Source: Sphingomonas sp. LHG3406-1 (GTDB taxonomy: Bacteria > Pseudomonadota > Alphaproteobacteria > Sphingomonadales > Sphingomonadaceae). From it: DNA of 64,000 bases. Under the pieces are notes generated by a model. It saw only the letters and a list, made by a program, of their open reading frames with translations, did no database searches and was not told where the DNA came from. Positions 1-27,583 of the stretch are shown one piece after another (the first letter of the stretch is position 1; the number at the start of each line of letters is the position of its first letter). Both the position numbers and the translations under genes were made by a program. The stretch is from contig NZ_CP069128.1 of the NCBI RefSeq assembly GCF_029637485.1, forward strand, positions 1,954,001-2,018,000, written 5' to 3'.

Positions 1-1558
1 CAACCCCTCGATCGGGGGTGTCGGCAAGGGTCATCTCGTCCGTGAGTTGGACGTGTTCGACGGCCTGATGGCGCGGGCGGCGGATCGGGCAGCCATCCAC
101 CGGCGCATGCTCAACCGGAGCAAGGGTCCTGCGGTCTGGGGTCCACGCATCCAGGCCGATCGTCTGCACTATCGCGCCGCCGTCGAGGCACTGCTGGCCG
201 AACTGGCTGTCGACCGCATCCATGGCGAAGCCGTTGCTCTCGACATCAAGCAGGGCGCCGTCGTTGGCGTGACGCTTTCCGACGGTGCGCGACTGCCGAC
301 CCGGTCCGTGGTCATTGCGACGGGTACCTTCCTCGACGCGCGAGTCTTCATCGGCGAGGAGAGTCGCGCGGCGGGCCGCCATGGCGAGCAAGCCAGCGTG
401 CCGCTCGCGGCGCAACTCCGCCAGGTGGGCCTAGCAGCGCGACGCCTCAAGACGGGCACGCCTCCGCGCCTGGATGGCCGCACCATTGATTGGGCTCGAC
501 TGGAGAAGCAGCCGAGCGATGCCGATGCTTGGGCCTTCTCGGCGCATCCCGAGGCTGCCAAACGCCTCCCGCAACTCTGCTGTGCCATCACCCGAACGAA
601 TGAGCGCACGCACGAGATCATCCGTGCGGCGGAGGAGCGCTCGCCACTCTACTCCGGTGTCATCGAGGGCAGGGGCCCGCGCTACTGCCCGTCGATCGAA
701 GACAAGGTTCGCCGCTTCGGCGATCGCGACGGGCACCAGATCTTCCTGGAGCCCGAAGGACTTGCGGACCCGCTCGTCTATCCGAACGGCATTTCCACAT
801 CGATGCCGATGGAGGTTCAGGAAGCGTTCGTCCGCTCGATCGCCGGCCTCGAACGTGTCGTCATCGCCCGTCCCGGCTATGCGGTCGAGTATGAGCATGT
901 CGACCCGCGCCGGCTTGGAAGCGACCTGCGGGTGCGAGACCTTCCTGGCCTGTTCCTGGCTGGGCAGATCAACGGCACGACCGGATATGAGGAAGCGGCA
1001 GCGCAAGGACTTGTGGCGGGCCTGAACGCGGCAGCCGCCGCACTCGGCAAAGAGGCGATCACCTTCGACCGCCGATCGAGCTACATCGGTGTCATGATCG
1101 ATGACCTGACCTTGCAGGGAGTCAGTGAACCCTATCGCATGATGACCGCGCGCGCTGAATATCGTTTGCTCCTCCGAGCCGATAATGCGGTCGCGCGTCT
1201 TGGCGACAAGGCGCTCGGCGTCGGCTGCGTGTCGGACCGCCGAGCGGACGCGATACGCAGTCACCTTAAGTGGCGGCAGCAACCCGCTTTCGCACAGACG
1301 GAAGAGGGCATGGCCGATGCGCTCTATGCGCCTTATGTGCTGCGCCAGCAGCGCGAGTGGGACGCCATTTCACGCAACCGCTCCGTAACCATCTCTGCGG
1401 ACCTCGACATCGCAGCTGTTGCCGGACTGTCCGCGGAGATGGCGGAACGGCTGGCGGCAGCCCGACCCGAAAATCTCGACCAGGCCTCACGCGTGCCCGG
1501 CGTCACGCCCGCAGCGATTACCGCGCTCTACGTCGCTCTTGTCCGGGCCGCCGCGTGA
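1..1558 (+). CDS. mnmG: MnmG, tRNA uridine-5-carboxymethylaminomethyl modification enzyme (5' truncated by window edge)
   Basis: With MnmE, MnmG installs the (carboxymethyl)aminomethyl group on U34 of several tRNAs, using FAD and a folate cofactor. The reading frame is already open at base 2, so the N-terminal FAD-binding Rossmann loop (roughly 100 residues of the usual ~620) lies outside the window. Visible family signatures are PSIGGVGKGHLVRE at the very start, GTGTFLDARVFIGE, RLKTGTPPRLDGRTIDW, and the C-terminal block RMMTARAEYRLLLRADNA that contacts tRNA. Its stop codon overlaps the rsmG start (GTGA). The mnmG-rsmG-parA-parB order is a classical origin-proximal arrangement. The identification is firm; only the start is unseen. 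A TTG at 47 is internal and not the true start. Confidence 0.97.
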   Translation, partial: NPSIGGVGKGHLVRELDVFDGLMARAADRAAIHRRMLNRSKGPAVWGPRIQADRLHYRAAVEALLAELAVDRIHGEAVALDIKQGAVVGVTLSDGARLPTRSVVIATGTFLDARVFIGEESRAAGRHGEQASVPLAAQLRQVGLAARRLKTGTPPRLDGRTIDWARLEKQPSDADAWAFSAHPEAAKRLPQLCCAITRTNERTHEIIRAAEERSPLYSGVIEGRGPRYCPSIEDKVRRFGDRDGHQIFLEPEGLADPLVYPNGISTSMPMEVQEAFVRSIAGLERVVIARPGYAVEYEHVDPRRLGSDLRVRDLPGLFLAGQINGTTGYEEAAAQGLVAGLNAAAAALGKEAITFDRRSSYIGVMIDDLTLQGVSEPYRMMTARAEYRLLLRADNAVARLGDKALGVGCVSDRRADAIRSHLKWRQQPAFAQTEEGMADALYAPYVLRQQREWDAISRNRSVTISADLDIAAVAGLSAEMAERLAAARPENLDQASRVPGVTPAAITALYVALVRAAA

Positions 1559-21671: not shown

Positions 21672-22379
21672 TTAGCGTTGCGTGGCGGCGGCTCCAGCAG
21701 GAATGGTCTTGGCCTGGGCGAGCTGACGCTGGCGGCCGTGGACCCAGGCACGCCCTCCGCCGAAGCTTGCAGCCGGTTCAAAGCCGGTGCGCTGCTCGGC
21801 GAGAACGGGGGCGCTCCCCTGTTCCTCAAGGAGCCACCAGCGACCGTCGGCGCGGGCAGCGAGCATCACATAATCGCCGCGGATGCGATCGCGCCCCATC
21901 ATCAGATAATAGTCGTTGCGGGGGTAGCCGAGCTCGCGAAGCGCCTGATATTTGAGGATAGCCCGGTCGTCGTCGTCGCCAAGGCCGGTATTCAAGGTCT
22001 CGGCAGCTGTCGCCCAGTAGGTACGGGCACCATATTGGGTGGTGTCCGAACGCCAGCCGACCCGTCGGTCGATCTCGGCCTGGAGGAATTTAAGCTGGCC
22101 GATGCTGCCAAGGCCTCGCGCGGGCTCGATCAGTCCCTGCAGCGCGCTCTTCGAGCGTGTGTCGGCCAGGACCTTGTGCCACTTGTCGGCCCAGCGGCCC
22201 TGCGGACCCGGAATGGCGACGGTGCCGAAGAGATTGGGCCGGACCTGGGCGGTGACGACGACGTCGCCGCCTTCACCATCCAGGGGGAGAGTCGCGGCCG
22301 GCGCGGCCGGAACTGCGCCAATCAGCGCCAGTCCGAACAGGACCGCGGGCCATGGCCCCTGCCTCCGTCCTTTCCGCAT
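21672..22379 (-). CDS. Catalytically degenerate BTLCP/LapG-like transglutaminase-fold protein
   Basis: A 235-residue exported protein (signal peptide ~1-29) whose middle and C-terminus match the bacterial transglutaminase-like cysteine proteinase family that includes LapG, a periplasmic protease releasing biofilm adhesins. Matches include the ALRELGYP helix after the active-site loop and a final PAASFGGGRAWVHG block. The usual GDCED loop reads GDDDD (residues 134-138), so the nucleophile Cys is Asp. The usual HMVL strand reads GDYVML, so the His is lost, and the Asp of the LDN motif is Glu (LLEEQ). It should not be an active protease. No adhesin or lapD is visible nearby. Confidence 0.72.
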   Translation of the reverse strand: MRKGRRQGPWPAVLFGLALIGAVPAAPAATLPLDGEGGDVVVTAQVRPNLFGTVAIPGPQGRWADKWHKVLADTRSKSALQGLIEPARGLGSIGQLKFLQAEIDRRVGWRSDTTQYGARTYWATAAETLNTGLGDDDDRAILKYQALRELGYPRNDYYLMMGRDRIRGDYVMLAARADGRWWLLEEQGSAPVLAEQRTGFEPAASFGGGRAWVHGRQRQLAQAKTIPAGAAATQR

Positions 22380-23204: not shown

Positions 23205-23726
23205 ATGAAGAAGACGCTCCTTGCCGCGGCCACTCTGGCCGCCGTTTCGACCGCGGTTCCGGCCGCCGCCCAGTCGGTTGCCAGCGCCACTCCGCGTGCG
23301 ACCGCCAATGCCCGGCTGATCAAGCCGCTGACACTCACCGCCCTCCGCGACCTCAACTTCGGCACCATCGTGATGGGCACCATCGCTGGCGACCAGACGG
23401 TCAGCATCGATGGCGCCGGCAGCGTCAGCTGCGGAGCATCGGGCGGTGGCCTGACCTGCGCCGGCACGCCGCAGTCAGCCGGCTATCGAGTCACCGGCAC
23501 CCAGGGCCAGGTGGTCGTGATCTCCTCGGCCGCGCCGAGCTTTCCGCTGTCGGGTTCGAATGGCGGCACGCTCGCTTTCGTGCCGAGCTTTCCGGCGTCG
23601 CTGACGCTCGGTAACTCGGGTGCCCCCGGCAACGACTTCGACGTCGGCGGTTCGGTCACCATCAACAGCAGCACGCCGGACGGCGTCTACTCGGGCCAGA
23701 TCGACATCCAGGTCGCCTACCAATAA
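23205..23726 (+). CDS. DUF4402 domain secreted protein, candidate surface subunit
   Basis: A 173-residue exported protein (signal peptide ~1-22, ending PAAAQS) with a DUF4402 beta-sandwich. The family lead is LTLTALRDLNFGTIVMGT, and a two-cysteine hairpin follows (SCGASGGGLTCAG). The C-terminal strand GSVTINSSTPDGVYSGQIDI resembles subunit donor/acceptor strands of fimbrial proteins. It is followed by a PapD-like chaperone and an usher-like gene, so it is the likely exported subunit of that cluster. That role is inferred from gene order and fold type. Confidence 0.88.
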   Translation: MKKTLLAAATLAAVSTAVPAAAQSVASATPRATANARLIKPLTLTALRDLNFGTIVMGTIAGDQTVSIDGAGSVSCGASGGGLTCAGTPQSAGYRVTGTQGQVVVISSAAPSFPLSGSNGGTLAFVPSFPASLTLGNSGAPGNDFDVGGSVTINSSTPDGVYSGQIDIQVAYQ

Positions 23727-23751
23727 GCGACCCGCGCCTGCGGGCTGCAAG

Positions 23752-23784
23752 AGGGGCGGTTCTCCGGGGAGGAGGGCCGCCCTT
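23752..23784 (+). terminator. Hairpin after the DUF4402 gene
   Basis: AGGGGCGG ... GGCCGCCCT forms a GC-rich stem with one bulge, followed by TTTGTCGTC. It lies 25 bp past the DUF4402 stop and 110 bp before the chaperone gene. A partial terminator here would let the subunit be made in excess of chaperone and usher, as in classical fimbrial operons. Confidence 0.5.
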
Positions 23785-23896
23785 TGTCGTCAAGGGAGCG
23801 CAGACGATGGAGCGTGGTTAGCGCTTCGGTAACCAACTGCTGACAGAACGATCCGGAATGGCGGCAATTGCTGCCGAGCCGGGGAGCCTTGTCACG

Positions 23897-24718
23897 ATGA
23901 ATATCACCGCCCGTTCTGCCCTCCGTACCGCGCTGATCGCCCCGCTGCTGGCGCTCTCGCCAAGCGCCACGGCCGGGGTTGGCGACCTGCTGGTCGCACC
24001 GACCCGGATCATTCTCGACGGAGGCCGCGGCACTGAGATCATCCTCAACAACATTGGCGACGAGACCGCGACATATCGCATCTCGGTCGAACTGAAGCGC
24101 ATGAAGCAGGACGGCACCTTCGAGGACGTGACCACGCCGACCGCGTCGGAAGAAGCGGCGCGCGACATGATCGTCTATGCTCCGCGCCGCGTGGTGCTTC
24201 CACCCAAGCAGCCGCAGACCATCCGCATCGCCGCCCGTGCGCCAGCAGGTCTCCCGGACGGAGAATATCGCGTCCACATGCTGTTCCGAGCGGTTCCGCC
24301 GGCGCAGCCCCCGCTCCAGACTCCGGCCGATTTCAAGGGCATCGGCTTCGCGCTTACGCCGGTCTATGGAGTCACCATCCCGGTCATCGTTCGCCTCGGC
24401 AACCTGTCGGCACAGGCGGGCATCGCCAACGTCGGCAAGGTCGTCGCAGGCGGCAAACCAGCGGTCGGCCTGGAGCTGAGCCGCTCCGGCTCTCGCTCCA
24501 CCTTCGGCGAAATTCGGGTGCTCAAGGCCGGGCTGAAGGATCCGCTCGCCATCCAGCGCGGCATCGCCGTCTACACCGAGATCGATCGCCGCAAGGTCAC
24601 AGTCCCGATCGACGACGCGGTCGTCGCACAGGCGACGGGACCGGTCACGGTCCAGTATCTGGAGACTGTCGACGGAGTCACCACCAAGCTGGCCGAGACC
24701 AGCGCGGTCCTTCGCTAG
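23897..24718 (+). CDS. PapD-like periplasmic chaperone (fimbrial type)
   Basis: The ATG at 23897 (273 aa) gives a signal peptide ending at SATAGVG; an in-frame start at 23858 adds 13 unlikely residues. The mature protein begins GDLLVAPTRIILDGGRGTE, the typical first strand of the chaperone N-terminal Ig domain. It then has VYAPRRVVLPPKQPQTIRI, matching the P-x-x-P-Q-x-I/V-R signature that precedes the subunit-binding groove, and a second Ig-like domain. It should fold and escort the DUF4402 subunit to the usher. It lies 28 bp before the usher gene. Confidence 0.85.
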   Translation: MNITARSALRTALIAPLLALSPSATAGVGDLLVAPTRIILDGGRGTEIILNNIGDETATYRISVELKRMKQDGTFEDVTTPTASEEAARDMIVYAPRRVVLPPKQPQTIRIAARAPAGLPDGEYRVHMLFRAVPPAQPPLQTPADFKGIGFALTPVYGVTIPVIVRLGNLSAQAGIANVGKVVAGGKPAVGLELSRSGSRSTFGEIRVLKAGLKDPLAIQRGIAVYTEIDRRKVTVPIDDAVVAQATGPVTVQYLETVDGVTTKLAETSAVLR

Positions 24719-24746
24719 GGCGAAGGAGAGCAGGACGGCGCTCGCC

Positions 24747-27461
24747 ATGTCGGGAGGCTGGTTCAGGCTGCCATTGCCGATGCTCGTCGCGGCGAGCGTC
24801 GGCATGGCCGCGCCTGCGTCCGCGCCGCCGTCGGCAGAACGCTGGAGCGCGGATCCCGAAGCCCAATTTCTCCTCGACCTGCAGATCCGCCAGCGGGCCT
24901 TCGGCGACGGCGTCCGCGCCTATCCGGTGCCGGAAGGCACCTGCGTCATCCTCGGTGATCTCATCACCGCGCTCGACCTGCCGATCAGGATCGATCTTGC
25001 TGCCCGCCGGGCCGAAGGCTGGGCATTTCGCGAGAGCAACAGGCTTGTCATCGACCGCGTTGCCGCGCGGGTCTCCTATGGCACCGGAAGCGAGCCGCTT
25101 CCGGCCGGGGCGGTCCGCGATGCACCGGAAGGCTGGTGCGTCGAAAGCGGCGCACTGTCGCGCTGGCTTGGCCTGCCGGTCCAGCCGCGAACCGACGCAT
25201 CTCTGCTCCTGCTCGAGAGCAAGGACAAACTGCCGATCGAAATGGCGATGGAACGCCGCGAACGCGCTTCGCGCCTGACCCGTGCGACCATCCCGATCGA
25301 CAGCCTGCCGCGCGTCCGCCTTCCCTATCGCATGTGGCGGACGCCAAGCGTCGACGTCATGCTCGACGGGGGCGTCGCCTGGTCCGCGCAGAGCGGCACA
25401 AGGATCGACCATCGCGCCAGCATCCTCGCCGCCGGTGAAGCGCTGCAGATGAGCTACGAGGCAAGGATCGCGACGGACCAGCGGGGCCTCCCCACCAACA
25501 TTCGGCTGCGCGCCTTCCGGTCGGATCCGGACGGGGGGCTGCTCGGGCCGCTCAAGGCAACCCACGTCGCCGTCGGAGACGTGGAGATCGTCGGCTCACC
25601 GCTTGCCCTGTCGTCGGGCAGCGGGCGCGGCGCCGTCGTCACGAATCGGCCTCTGTTCAGGCCCGTCGCCTTCGATCGCACGCAGTTCAGCGGCGAATTG
25701 CCGGTCGGCTGGGACGCCGAGCTTTACCGAAACGGCGAGCTGGTCGCCTTCGCCGCCGCCGGGAGTGATGGACGTTACCGCTTCGACGATGTCGCGCTCG
25801 GCTTCGGCGACAATCGCTTCGAGATATTGAGCTACGGGCCGCAGGGTCAGGTCCGAAGTCGCATCGAAAACCTCACGGTGGGCCCCGAGGCCGTACCGCC
25901 GGGCGACACGCATTACTGGCTCGGTGTTGTCGATCCCGGAAGCGACCTGCTCGACTTCCGGAAACGCGACGGTCCCAGCCGCGATAGCGGCTGGCGCGCG
26001 ACGGCAAGCGTGGAGCATGGTCTGGACCGGCGTACCTCACTGGCGGCGCTGGTCCAGACCCTGAGCGTTGACGACGAGCGTGTGACCTACGTTGAGGGGA
26101 CCGTTCGCCGCTCGATTGGTCCCGCGATCGCCGAGCTGGCTGTCGCGCGCGACAGCAAGGGCGGGTTGGCGCTGCGGGGACAGGCATTGGCACGGATCGG
26201 CGCCGTCAATCTGAGCTGGAGCAGCTTTTGGAGTCGCGATTTCGCCGCTCAGCCTGAGGGCGTCGGCGCAAGCGCGGAGCATCGCTTCAGCGTCGACGCG
26301 CCGGTGAAGCTCGGCAGTGACATGATCTTGCCCCTTCACGGCGACATCAGGATCGCCGAGCGTCGCGGTGGTGGACGGTCGCTGGAGGCCAATGGCCGGA
26401 CCAGCATCATGCTCAGCCGCTTCAACCTGGCGAGCATGGTGCGATGGCGCGACGAACAGCCGGGCGGCGGCCTCAAGGGTCGTCGCGAAGCGGAGGTTGG
26501 CCTGATCGGGAGCGGCCGGATCGGTCCGGTGCGGGTCCGCGGCACGACCGAATGGGAGATCCACCCCGGATCCCGCCTCCGCCGCGCCGAGCTTTCGGGC
26601 TATTGGAGCAGGGGCGGGAATGCCGATTGGGAAGCCGCCCTCGCCTACGAGCGCCAGGACAAGGGCCGGGCGCGCGCGCGGCTCAGCCATATCCGCCGTT
26701 TCGACCAGTTCGCCGTCGCGGGCAGCATCGAGGCCGCCAGCGATGGCTCCGTCGCCGCGGGCCTGAACCTCAACTTCTCGCTCGATCGCGGTCCAGGTGG
26801 CTGGCGCTTCAGCCGACAGTCGCTTGCCGGCACTGGCAGCGTGCGCGCGCAGCTGTTCCGCGACGCCAACGGCAACGGCCTGCGCGACAGCGGCGAGAAG
26901 GTTGAGGAAGGCGCCGTTCTTACTGCCGGGCTGCGCCCGGCGGACCGGCCTTCAGGGCGCGACGGCTGGGCATCGGTAGCAGGGCTGGACAATTATCGGC
27001 CGATAGCGATCGGCGTCGATGCCAGTTCGCTGAGCGATCCCAACCTGGTTCCACTGAAGCCTGCGCAGGTGGTCGTCCCGCGGCCCGGTGTCTCGGCCGA
27101 GCTGCTGATCCCGCTGACCGGCGGCGGCGCGATCGAGGGCGTCCTGCTGAAGGATGGCGGCGGAAGCTTCGAAGGGCTCGACCTCGAACTGGTCGATGCC
27201 GCGGGCAAGGTCGTCGCGACCGCCGGTAGCGATTATGATGGCTTCTTCCTGTTCGAACGGGTGCCGCCGGGCCGCTACAGCCTCCGTCTCAGTGGTCCGA
27301 GTGCGGTGCTAGCCAAGTCCGATCCACAGCTGACGCCCGGGGCCTTCGAGCTCAAGCCCGAGCAAGCGGTGCTTCGTCTCGGTTCTCTGGTGGTGAAAGC
27401 AAGCCCCAAGCTTGCCGTTAACCAAGATGTCGTCTTAGGCGACTTGAGGTTGGCCAACTAA
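24747..27461 (+). CDS. Outer-membrane usher-like protein (alternative chaperone-usher type)
   Basis: A 904-residue exported protein. The N-terminal ~120 residues look like an usher N-domain (FLLDLQIRQRAFGDGVRAY). Then follow GWDAELYRNGELVAF and a plug-like Ig domain (SDGRYRFDDVALGFGDNRFEILSYGPQGQ), a long run of beta strands rich in aromatic-alternating segments, and a C-terminal pair of Ig/SdrB-like domains. The last part contains FRDANGNGLRDSGEK, an EF-hand-like calcium loop, and FFLFERVPPGRYSLRL. It resembles the CS1/CFA-type (alpha) ushers more than FimD. It probably threads the DUF4402 subunit through the outer membrane. No adhesin gene follows; a tRNA gene is next. Confidence 0.82.
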   Translation: MSGGWFRLPLPMLVAASVGMAAPASAPPSAERWSADPEAQFLLDLQIRQRAFGDGVRAYPVPEGTCVILGDLITALDLPIRIDLAARRAEGWAFRESNRLVIDRVAARVSYGTGSEPLPAGAVRDAPEGWCVESGALSRWLGLPVQPRTDASLLLLESKDKLPIEMAMERRERASRLTRATIPIDSLPRVRLPYRMWRTPSVDVMLDGGVAWSAQSGTRIDHRASILAAGEALQMSYEARIATDQRGLPTNIRLRAFRSDPDGGLLGPLKATHVAVGDVEIVGSPLALSSGSGRGAVVTNRPLFRPVAFDRTQFSGELPVGWDAELYRNGELVAFAAAGSDGRYRFDDVALGFGDNRFEILSYGPQGQVRSRIENLTVGPEAVPPGDTHYWLGVVDPGSDLLDFRKRDGPSRDSGWRATASVEHGLDRRTSLAALVQTLSVDDERVTYVEGTVRRSIGPAIAELAVARDSKGGLALRGQALARIGAVNLSWSSFWSRDFAAQPEGVGASAEHRFSVDAPVKLGSDMILPLHGDIRIAERRGGGRSLEANGRTSIMLSRFNLASMVRWRDEQPGGGLKGRREAEVGLIGSGRIGPVRVRGTTEWEIHPGSRLRRAELSGYWSRGGNADWEAALAYERQDKGRARARLSHIRRFDQFAVAGSIEAASDGSVAAGLNLNFSLDRGPGGWRFSRQSLAGTGSVRAQLFRDANGNGLRDSGEKVEEGAVLTAGLRPADRPSGRDGWASVAGLDNYRPIAIGVDASSLSDPNLVPLKPAQVVVPRPGVSAELLIPLTGGGAIEGVLLKDGGGSFEGLDLELVDAAGKVVATAGSDYDGFFLFERVPPGRYSLRLSGPSAVLAKSDPQLTPGAFELKPEQAVLRLGSLVVKASPKLAVNQDVVLGDLRLAN

Positions 27462-27496: not shown

Positions 27497-27583
27497 TGGT
27501 GCGGTCGAGAAGACTCGAACTTCCACGGCCTTTCGGCCACAGCGACCTCAACGCTGCGCGTCTACCAATTCCGCCACGACCGC
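27497..27583 (-). tRNA. tRNA-Leu (anticodon GAG), CCA encoded
   Basis: The minus strand folds as a class II tRNA. The acceptor arm is GCGGTCG / CGACCGC with discriminator A and an encoded CCA. The D-loop has GGTAGACGC, and the anticodon arm is CAGCG-TTGAGGT-CGCTG (anticodon GAG). A long variable arm (TGGCCGAAAGGCCG) and T-arm GTTCGAGTC complete it. 87 nt. A short hairpin (CACTTCTTTCCAGAAGTG, 27481-27498) overlaps the CCA end on the 3' side without a T tract. Confidence 0.97.

Follow-up and report, generated by a model that had tools for sequence, protein, structure and literature searches.

A proposed non-classical chaperone-usher locus with DUF4402 subunits in Sphingomonas sp. LHG3406-1

Known chaperone-usher classes and the locus

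The closest described relatives of the locus studied here are the chaperone-usher (CU) systems, of which we considered the classical (Fim, Pap), archaic (Csu type) and alternative (Ecp; CFA/I) classes, together with the WxL/WxLIP system of Gram-positive bacteria. We compared with them a cluster of three genes from Sphingomonas sp. LHG3406-1, coding for a DUF4402 protein (D1), a two-domain periplasmic chaperone and a 904-residue usher-like protein, located in a 64,000-nucleotide stretch (positions 1954001-2018000 of a closed 2.85 Mb genome), hereafter the window. According to PMC4654587, alternative systems are restricted to beta- and gammaproteobacteria, a proline is invariant in chaperones, and a conserved arginine is found in archaic and alternative chaperones only (Pro60 and Arg89 of EcpB), the proline being located in the strand that this source names D1 and the arginine in strand F1. 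PMC10599100 describes a predicted hairpin strand of WxLIP that enters WxL in a manner reminiscent of donor-strand complementation; the main text of that source has no words beginning with chaperone, usher, PapD, pilus, fimbria or donor strand. The papers found on chaperone-usher systems in Sphingomonas, judged by titles and the first lines of abstracts, contain no treatment of the present system, and the literature searched yielded nothing on ushers or fimbriae in Sphingomonadales, nothing on alternative CU ushers in Alphaproteobacteria and no paper using the name DUF4402.

A preliminary description of this DNA had proposed an atypical chaperone-usher cluster made of contiguous genes for a DUF4402 protein, a PapD-like chaperone and a 904-residue usher-like protein. 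Our analysis supports this proposal: the three ORFs are present on the + strand, and we estimate at roughly 0.85 the probability that they form the assembly core of a non-classical CU pilus with DUF4402 subunits. Searches of the three proteins against NCBIfam gave no match near the cut-offs, and the usher and chaperone genes are each present in a single copy in the genome. The chaperone ORF is open from an upstream position, and its start was placed at 23897 because most homologues, among the 120 matches listed, are 271-278 amino acids long.

None of the three CU classes, as defined by their usher models, accommodates the locus. Classical systems share the usher and chaperone folds with it, yet FimD matches Pfam Usher (E 1e-228), PapC_N and PapC_C, whereas the window usher matches none of them, and the Pfam Usher scan of the whole genome gave 0 matches. 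The archaic class combines SCPU subunits with ushers recognized by Pfam Usher; two alphaproteobacterial ushers of SCPU systems pass both Usher and PapC_C while the window usher passes neither, and the genome is likewise devoid of SCPU matches (0). Alternative systems come closer, given that in ecpABC, too, the gene for the major subunit is followed by those for chaperone and usher, and that EcpC, the alternative CU usher of E. coli, also lacks a Pfam Usher match and reaches CarboxypepD_reg below the cut-off in its C-terminal part, as does the window usher. However, EcpC passes TcfC (PF16967) and CooC_C (PF15976) and the window usher does not: two of 36 ushers of the window type reach TcfC (best E 0.03), none of the 36 reaches CooC_C at E<=0.1, and the genome has no TcfC match at E<=0.001. 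In addition, the Ecp subunit belongs to MatB and the window subunit to DUF4402, and the tip-like subunit of the window type is often encoded far from the usher. We therefore place the system within the CU superfamily and outside these three classes as defined by usher models; among them, its chaperone residues bring it nearest to the non-classical ones, and its gene order and the C-terminal part of its usher bring it nearest to the alternative class.

Predicted folds of usher, chaperone and subunit

In Pfam, the usher matches SdrD_B (E 7e-7) and, short of the cut-off, CarboxypepD_reg (E 2e-6). A missing Usher match combined with such a C-terminus is no sign of a different secretion system, since EcpC has the same traits. 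Structure modelling (overall pTM 0.52), Foldseek, the VIA structural re-alignment and profile alignment all recovered an usher fold with an N-terminal domain, a plugged barrel and C-terminal domains: the top 18 Foldseek rows are all FimD or PapC, and the first 15 VIA entries are ushers, 1.5-4.8 Z units over the best other barrel. Alignment of a deeper usher profile with EcpC by hhalign gave a probability of 97.0%, obtained without a shuffle control, with alignments spanning 519-549 columns; an earlier profile had given a weak 0.7%, a discrepancy resolved by the structure model and the deeper profile. A single-sequence search of PDB chains with the usher returned nothing, and BLASTP of the window usher against one archaic usher gave a best E of only 0.70. 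In the EcpC alignments the plug-like insert falls on the region that carries the TcfC E-set match of EcpC, and the C-terminal sandwich region aligns with that of EcpC. By analogy, the N-terminal domain would be the expected docking site for chaperone-subunit complexes. The SdrB- and EF-hand-like C-terminal parts reported in the preliminary description were found again, the latter as a loop, DANGNGLRDSGE, a putative metal site. Across 36 relatives D706 and E717 do not vary, and conservation of N708, N710 and D714 is at least 90%. Species of Sphingomonas, for example S. rosea, S. humi and S. kaistensis, account for the named usher homologues with 72-74% identity. Other alphaproteobacteria have a longer usher type (1254 and 1356 amino acids in loci L182 and L180, respectively) with the same C-terminal matches, encoded next to chaperone and DUF4402 genes.

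In Pfam the chaperone reaches PapD_N below the cut-off only (E 0.0026); its PapD-like two-domain architecture is apparent from a structure model of the S. alba relative, in which the DUF4402 protein, a linker and the chaperone were read as one chain. Foldseek with the chaperone model ranked EfmWxLIP1 best (E 3.2e-8), followed by CsuC (1.8e-6), CfaA (4.5e-6) and many pilus chaperones, while VIA tied WxLIP (11.7, rmsd 8.8) with CsuC (11.6, rmsd 4.7). The chaperone profile searched against PDB (E<=10) likewise retrieved EfmWxLIP1 chains only (best E 0.047), and no WxLIP or DUF916 Pfam family was detected in 33 chaperones at E<=0.1. We regard this modelled likeness as a lead, not an established relation. 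Pro96 and Arg125 (numbering of the 273-residue form) are invariant in 33 of 33 homologues and align, weakly, with residues 80 and 109 of the EcpB precursor, which correspond to 60 and 89 given a 20-residue signal peptide; the chaperone thus presents the residue pair of archaic and alternative chaperones, including EcpB. In the S. alba model the proline interrupts two short strands, being located in the break that separates them, and the arginine belongs to the strand preceding the donor segment, in agreement with PMC4654587. In the second domain, Y254 (Tyr in 31 and Phe in two of the 33 homologues) is a candidate anchor tyrosine.

D1 matches Pfam DUF4402 (PF14352) over the cut-off (E 3.5e-19) and has 167 homologues at E<=0.001. 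In the DUF4402 alignment (A3), its N-terminal extension carries an A..ARLIKPL pattern. The DUF4402 domain of the S. alba model is predicted confidently (pLDDT 91-97 in ten-residue blocks of residues 21-140), and mature residues 1-19 lie outside any strand, which fits a free donor strand. Comparison by hhalign of the DUF4402 profile (152 rows, 122 of them used) with 21 SCPU domains (21 of 23 matches used) gave scores of 26.1 (local) and 25.1 (global), the LxFG motif at the start and the GxYxxT motif at the end of both being in register, as against maxima of 16.8 and 11.6 for 60 column shuffles and 9.7 and 8.2 for a reversed profile. This similarity is a lead towards archaic pilins, short of proof. 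A comparison of EcpA with the DUF4402 profile reached only 6.9% and was discarded. When DUF4402 and chaperone were given to MAFFT as separate rows, the last strand of DUF4402 was placed wrongly; therefore a second alignment was made.

Gene linkage and the proposed D2 subunit

The trio is more than a chance neighbourhood. In the named loci, the best 80 of 248 loci found, the chaperone gene adjoins the usher gene in 80 of 80, and 78 of them have a DUF4402 gene further upstream in the same orientation, the contigs of the other two (L045, L078) ending before it. Dispersal of the three genes across genomes, which would have spoken against a functional unit, was accordingly not seen, and the suggestion that the DUF4402 protein may be the assembled subunit is considered likely. 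Among 385 alphaproteobacterial genomes, 24 match the usher profile, 17 the DUF4402 profile and 13 both, against 1.1 expected; in the 12 genomes with both besides that of the window, the two matches lie on one contig within ~4 kb, as read from the tables. Among 298 Sphingomonadaceae genomes the corresponding numbers are 115, 114 and 110, against 44 expected. Both expectations ignore shared descent and count the window genome in. The 110 shared genomes have a mean of 3.7 DUF4402 matches, with 3-5 in 93 of them.

The preliminary description had noted no classical pilin or tip adhesin. This stands for the segment occupied by the trio and fails genome-wide: four further DUF4402 genes are located ~40-55 kb upstream, outside the window (matches at 1936585-1937507, - strand, and 1922677-1923713, + strand). 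An absence of further subunits is thus not supported, given that related clusters have a DUF4402 gene of the CxLC type, here called D2, upstream, and that the window genome carries its copy 41 kb from the usher. D2 and an adjoining D1-like gene (L008:6583-7652) correspond to genome positions ~1936582-1937651, 16 kb before the window start. For the D2 alignment, 24 weak DUF4402 (A3) matches in the named loci were considered and 20 kept, plus the window genome's copy; L082 and L087 (D1-like), L019:3714 (a damaged D1) and L030:9978 (89 amino acids, taken as spurious) were left out. A C-x-L-C motif follows the signal peptide in all 20 and in the window genome's copy. At E<=0.001 the D2 profile matched 102 genomes, as it detects further DUF4402 genes too; we counted with bit-score limits of our own (usher >400, D2 >80), by which D2 is present in 81 Sphingomonadaceae genomes, including 79 of the 86 with a strong usher match, against 23 expected.

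In 24 of these 79 genomes D2 shares the strand of the usher match and precedes it by 1.6-1.8 kb, in 31 it is at least 20 kb away on the same contig, and in 24 it is on another contig. The regions of 40 of the 55 genomes with an unlinked D2 were inspected: D2 is the sole DUF4402 ORF in all 40, and 33 copies have a CxxC near the N-terminus, followed in a number of them by an NG-rich spacer. D2 is adjacent to the usher in all of the remaining five sampled genomes of the genus. In S. alba (L014) the gene immediately preceding the cluster is penicillin-binding-protein (PBP)-like. In the window genome a PBP-like gene is grouped with D2 and the D1-like gene at a distance of 41 kb from the usher and in reversed orientation, an arrangement that, judging from gene order, a single inversion would explain. 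The genes near this pair are presumably PBP-like and MsrB-like. A second distant DUF4402 pair (L007:7541-8720, genome ~1922540-1923719) has neighbours that we take to be ABC ATPase-like, L-aspartate oxidase-like and TldD-like; its first member shows a frame change near its end, either damage or an assembly error. DUF4402 genes in similar surroundings were seen in L184, L185, L186 and L190, the presumed identity of the neighbours being least certain for L186.

The hairpin reported after the subunit gene is real and recurs as a structured stretch: of the 80 loci, 11 relatives were selected for comparison, and in them the corresponding region has a more stable fold than its shuffled versions (z -2.5 to -5.1). 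T-runs follow the stem in several of the 11, and the stem of L021 is weaker and different. A consensus T-run terminator scan of the window reported no terminator at the hairpin. The stem-loop is possibly an attenuator or mRNA-end stabilizer, compatible with subunit excess by attenuation or 3′-end protection. The coordinates of all features are collected in Table 1. Beyond the tRNA-Leu gene directly 3' of the usher gene lie genes that we presume to be zinc-ribbon, FtsE/FtsX-like, PlsC-like and PheT-like, in the same order in S. alba.

Table 1. Features of the DUF4402-chaperone-usher locus and its surroundings (window coordinates unless a locus is given)
Feature	Position	Strand	Remarks
DUF4402 protein D1	23205-23726	+	173 aa; proposed main fibre subunit; PF14352 match
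D1 signal peptide	residues ~1-23	+	assigned by eye
Proposed N-terminal donor strand of D1	23274-23327	+	mature residues ahead of first strand; putative donor role
Stem-loop between D1 and chaperone genes	23751-23785	+	z -3.76, 84-nt slice
Two-Ig periplasmic chaperone, non-classical	23897-24718	+	ORF open from 23858 (286 aa); start from homologues
Usher-like outer-membrane protein	24747-27461	+	904 aa
Usher N-terminal periplasmic domain	24867-25274	+	residues 41-176; model secondary structure and pLDDT
Plug-like insert in barrel	25677-25886	+	residues 311-380; model
C-terminal sandwich domains, SdrD_B/CarboxypepD_reg match	26835-27401	+	residues 697-885; Pfam, model
EF-hand-like loop	26862-26897	+	residues 706-717; putative metal site
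D1-like gene	L008:6583-7086	- in genome	DUF4402 match
D2 gene	L008:7140-7652	- in genome	C-R-L-C just after signal peptide; cleavage site by eye
BTLCP (transglutaminase-like cysteine proteinase) match	21672-22379	-	below cut-off; just upstream of trio
tRNA-Leu (gag)	27497-27583	-

Proposed assembly route and alternatives

From the predicted folds, the gene order and the co-occurrence of D2 with the usher, we infer a fibre, its tip and an assembly route. DUF4402 proteins would reach the periplasm with an incomplete Ig-like fold, where the two-Ig chaperone would lend a strand, GIGFALTPVYGVTIPV, to fill the groove of D1 and would grip the subunit's C-terminal carboxylate. The usher N-terminal domain would receive the complex, the subunits would be exported through the barrel, and each would donate its N-terminal extension to the preceding subunit. 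D2, with its CxLC near the N-terminus, would form the cap at the tip, since no conserved donor strand is present in its N-terminal region. An excess of the main subunit may be maintained by the hairpin that follows its gene.

Several results weigh against a pilus assembled in this way. The S. alba read-through model (pTM 0.52) shows no strand pairing or insertion between chaperone and subunit, predicts no complex and leaves residues 349-359, the upper portion of the strand proposed as donor, unpaired. The DUF4402 profile found chance-level matches only in PDB, fold searches with the joint chain gave DUF4402 no confirmed structural match, their lists being filled by the chaperone, and the DUF4402-SCPU comparison has a probability of 15% (local) or 31% (global). 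The register of the chaperone proline and arginine comes from two weak alignments only (hhalign probability 0.4%, and MAFFT), and a poorly placed FimC shows Ala at the proline column of the latter. The usher passes no Pfam usher model, and its 97.0% alignment is the one without shuffles. The co-occurrence expected by chance was calculated regardless of shared descent, and among the alphaproteobacterial genomes 11 of 24 with the usher lack a DUF4402 match and four of 17 with DUF4402 lack the usher.

An usher-like pore could instead secrete DUF4402 proteins singly, as a coat or binding protein on the surface or in the medium, without any fibre. The DUF4402 polymer is deduced here from genes and models, and the unlinked D2 genes standing as sole DUF4402 ORFs would suit such export; we nevertheless find it unlikely, given that most genomes with both profiles have 3-5 DUF4402 matches, as would be expected of a multi-subunit fibre, and that the model leaves the N-terminal extension of D1 outside strands. 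Far less probable still, the proteins could make up a complex of the periplasm or the outer membrane that has nothing to do with surface fibres, and the resemblance to ushers would be that of beta-barrels in general. The missing Pfam match and the pTM of the usher model leave room for it, whereas the lead of ushers over other barrels in VIA, the length of the profile alignments and the PapD-like chaperone encoded alongside all speak against it.

As to D2, we read it, from its sequence, as the probable tip subunit of the proposed pilus, composed of a head, a spacer and then a pilin domain, with no conserved donor strand. It might also be located at the base of the fibre or terminate it, or be a surface protein that functions separately and whose CxxC is redox-active or binds metal, an alternative that we hold to be somewhat less probable while taking it seriously: the gene lies away from the usher in 55 of 79 genomes, a CxxC alone does not imply adhesion, and seven of the 40 unlinked copies have none near the N-terminus. 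The presence of D2 in nearly all strong-usher genomes argues the other way, as does the head-then-pilin order, in which a low-complexity spacer replaces the donor strand in many copies, as would befit a tip subunit.

A broader scenario is speculative and, in our opinion, rather doubtful: a fourth CU lineage with DUF4402 pilins and a genetically split tip subunit whose CxxC head, free at the N-terminus, would serve redox, metal binding or covalent attachment, its chaperone sharing a common ancestor with WxLIP, so that WxL:WxLIP and chaperone:pilin would be two branches of one donor-strand system across both cell-wall types. At the level of the proposed assembly core, our analysis proposes a function for DUF4402 and for proteins annotated "carboxypeptidase regulatory-like" or "MSCRAMM family". 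A further lead is the possible connection of pilus chaperones in Gram-negative bacteria with the WxL system in Gram-positive ones. The analysis also provides a testable case of a pilus tip-like subunit that co-occurs with its usher yet is often encoded far off. Finally, the match of 115 of the 298 sampled Sphingomonadaceae genomes to the window-type usher profile suggests that surveys based on Pfam Usher would miss this group.

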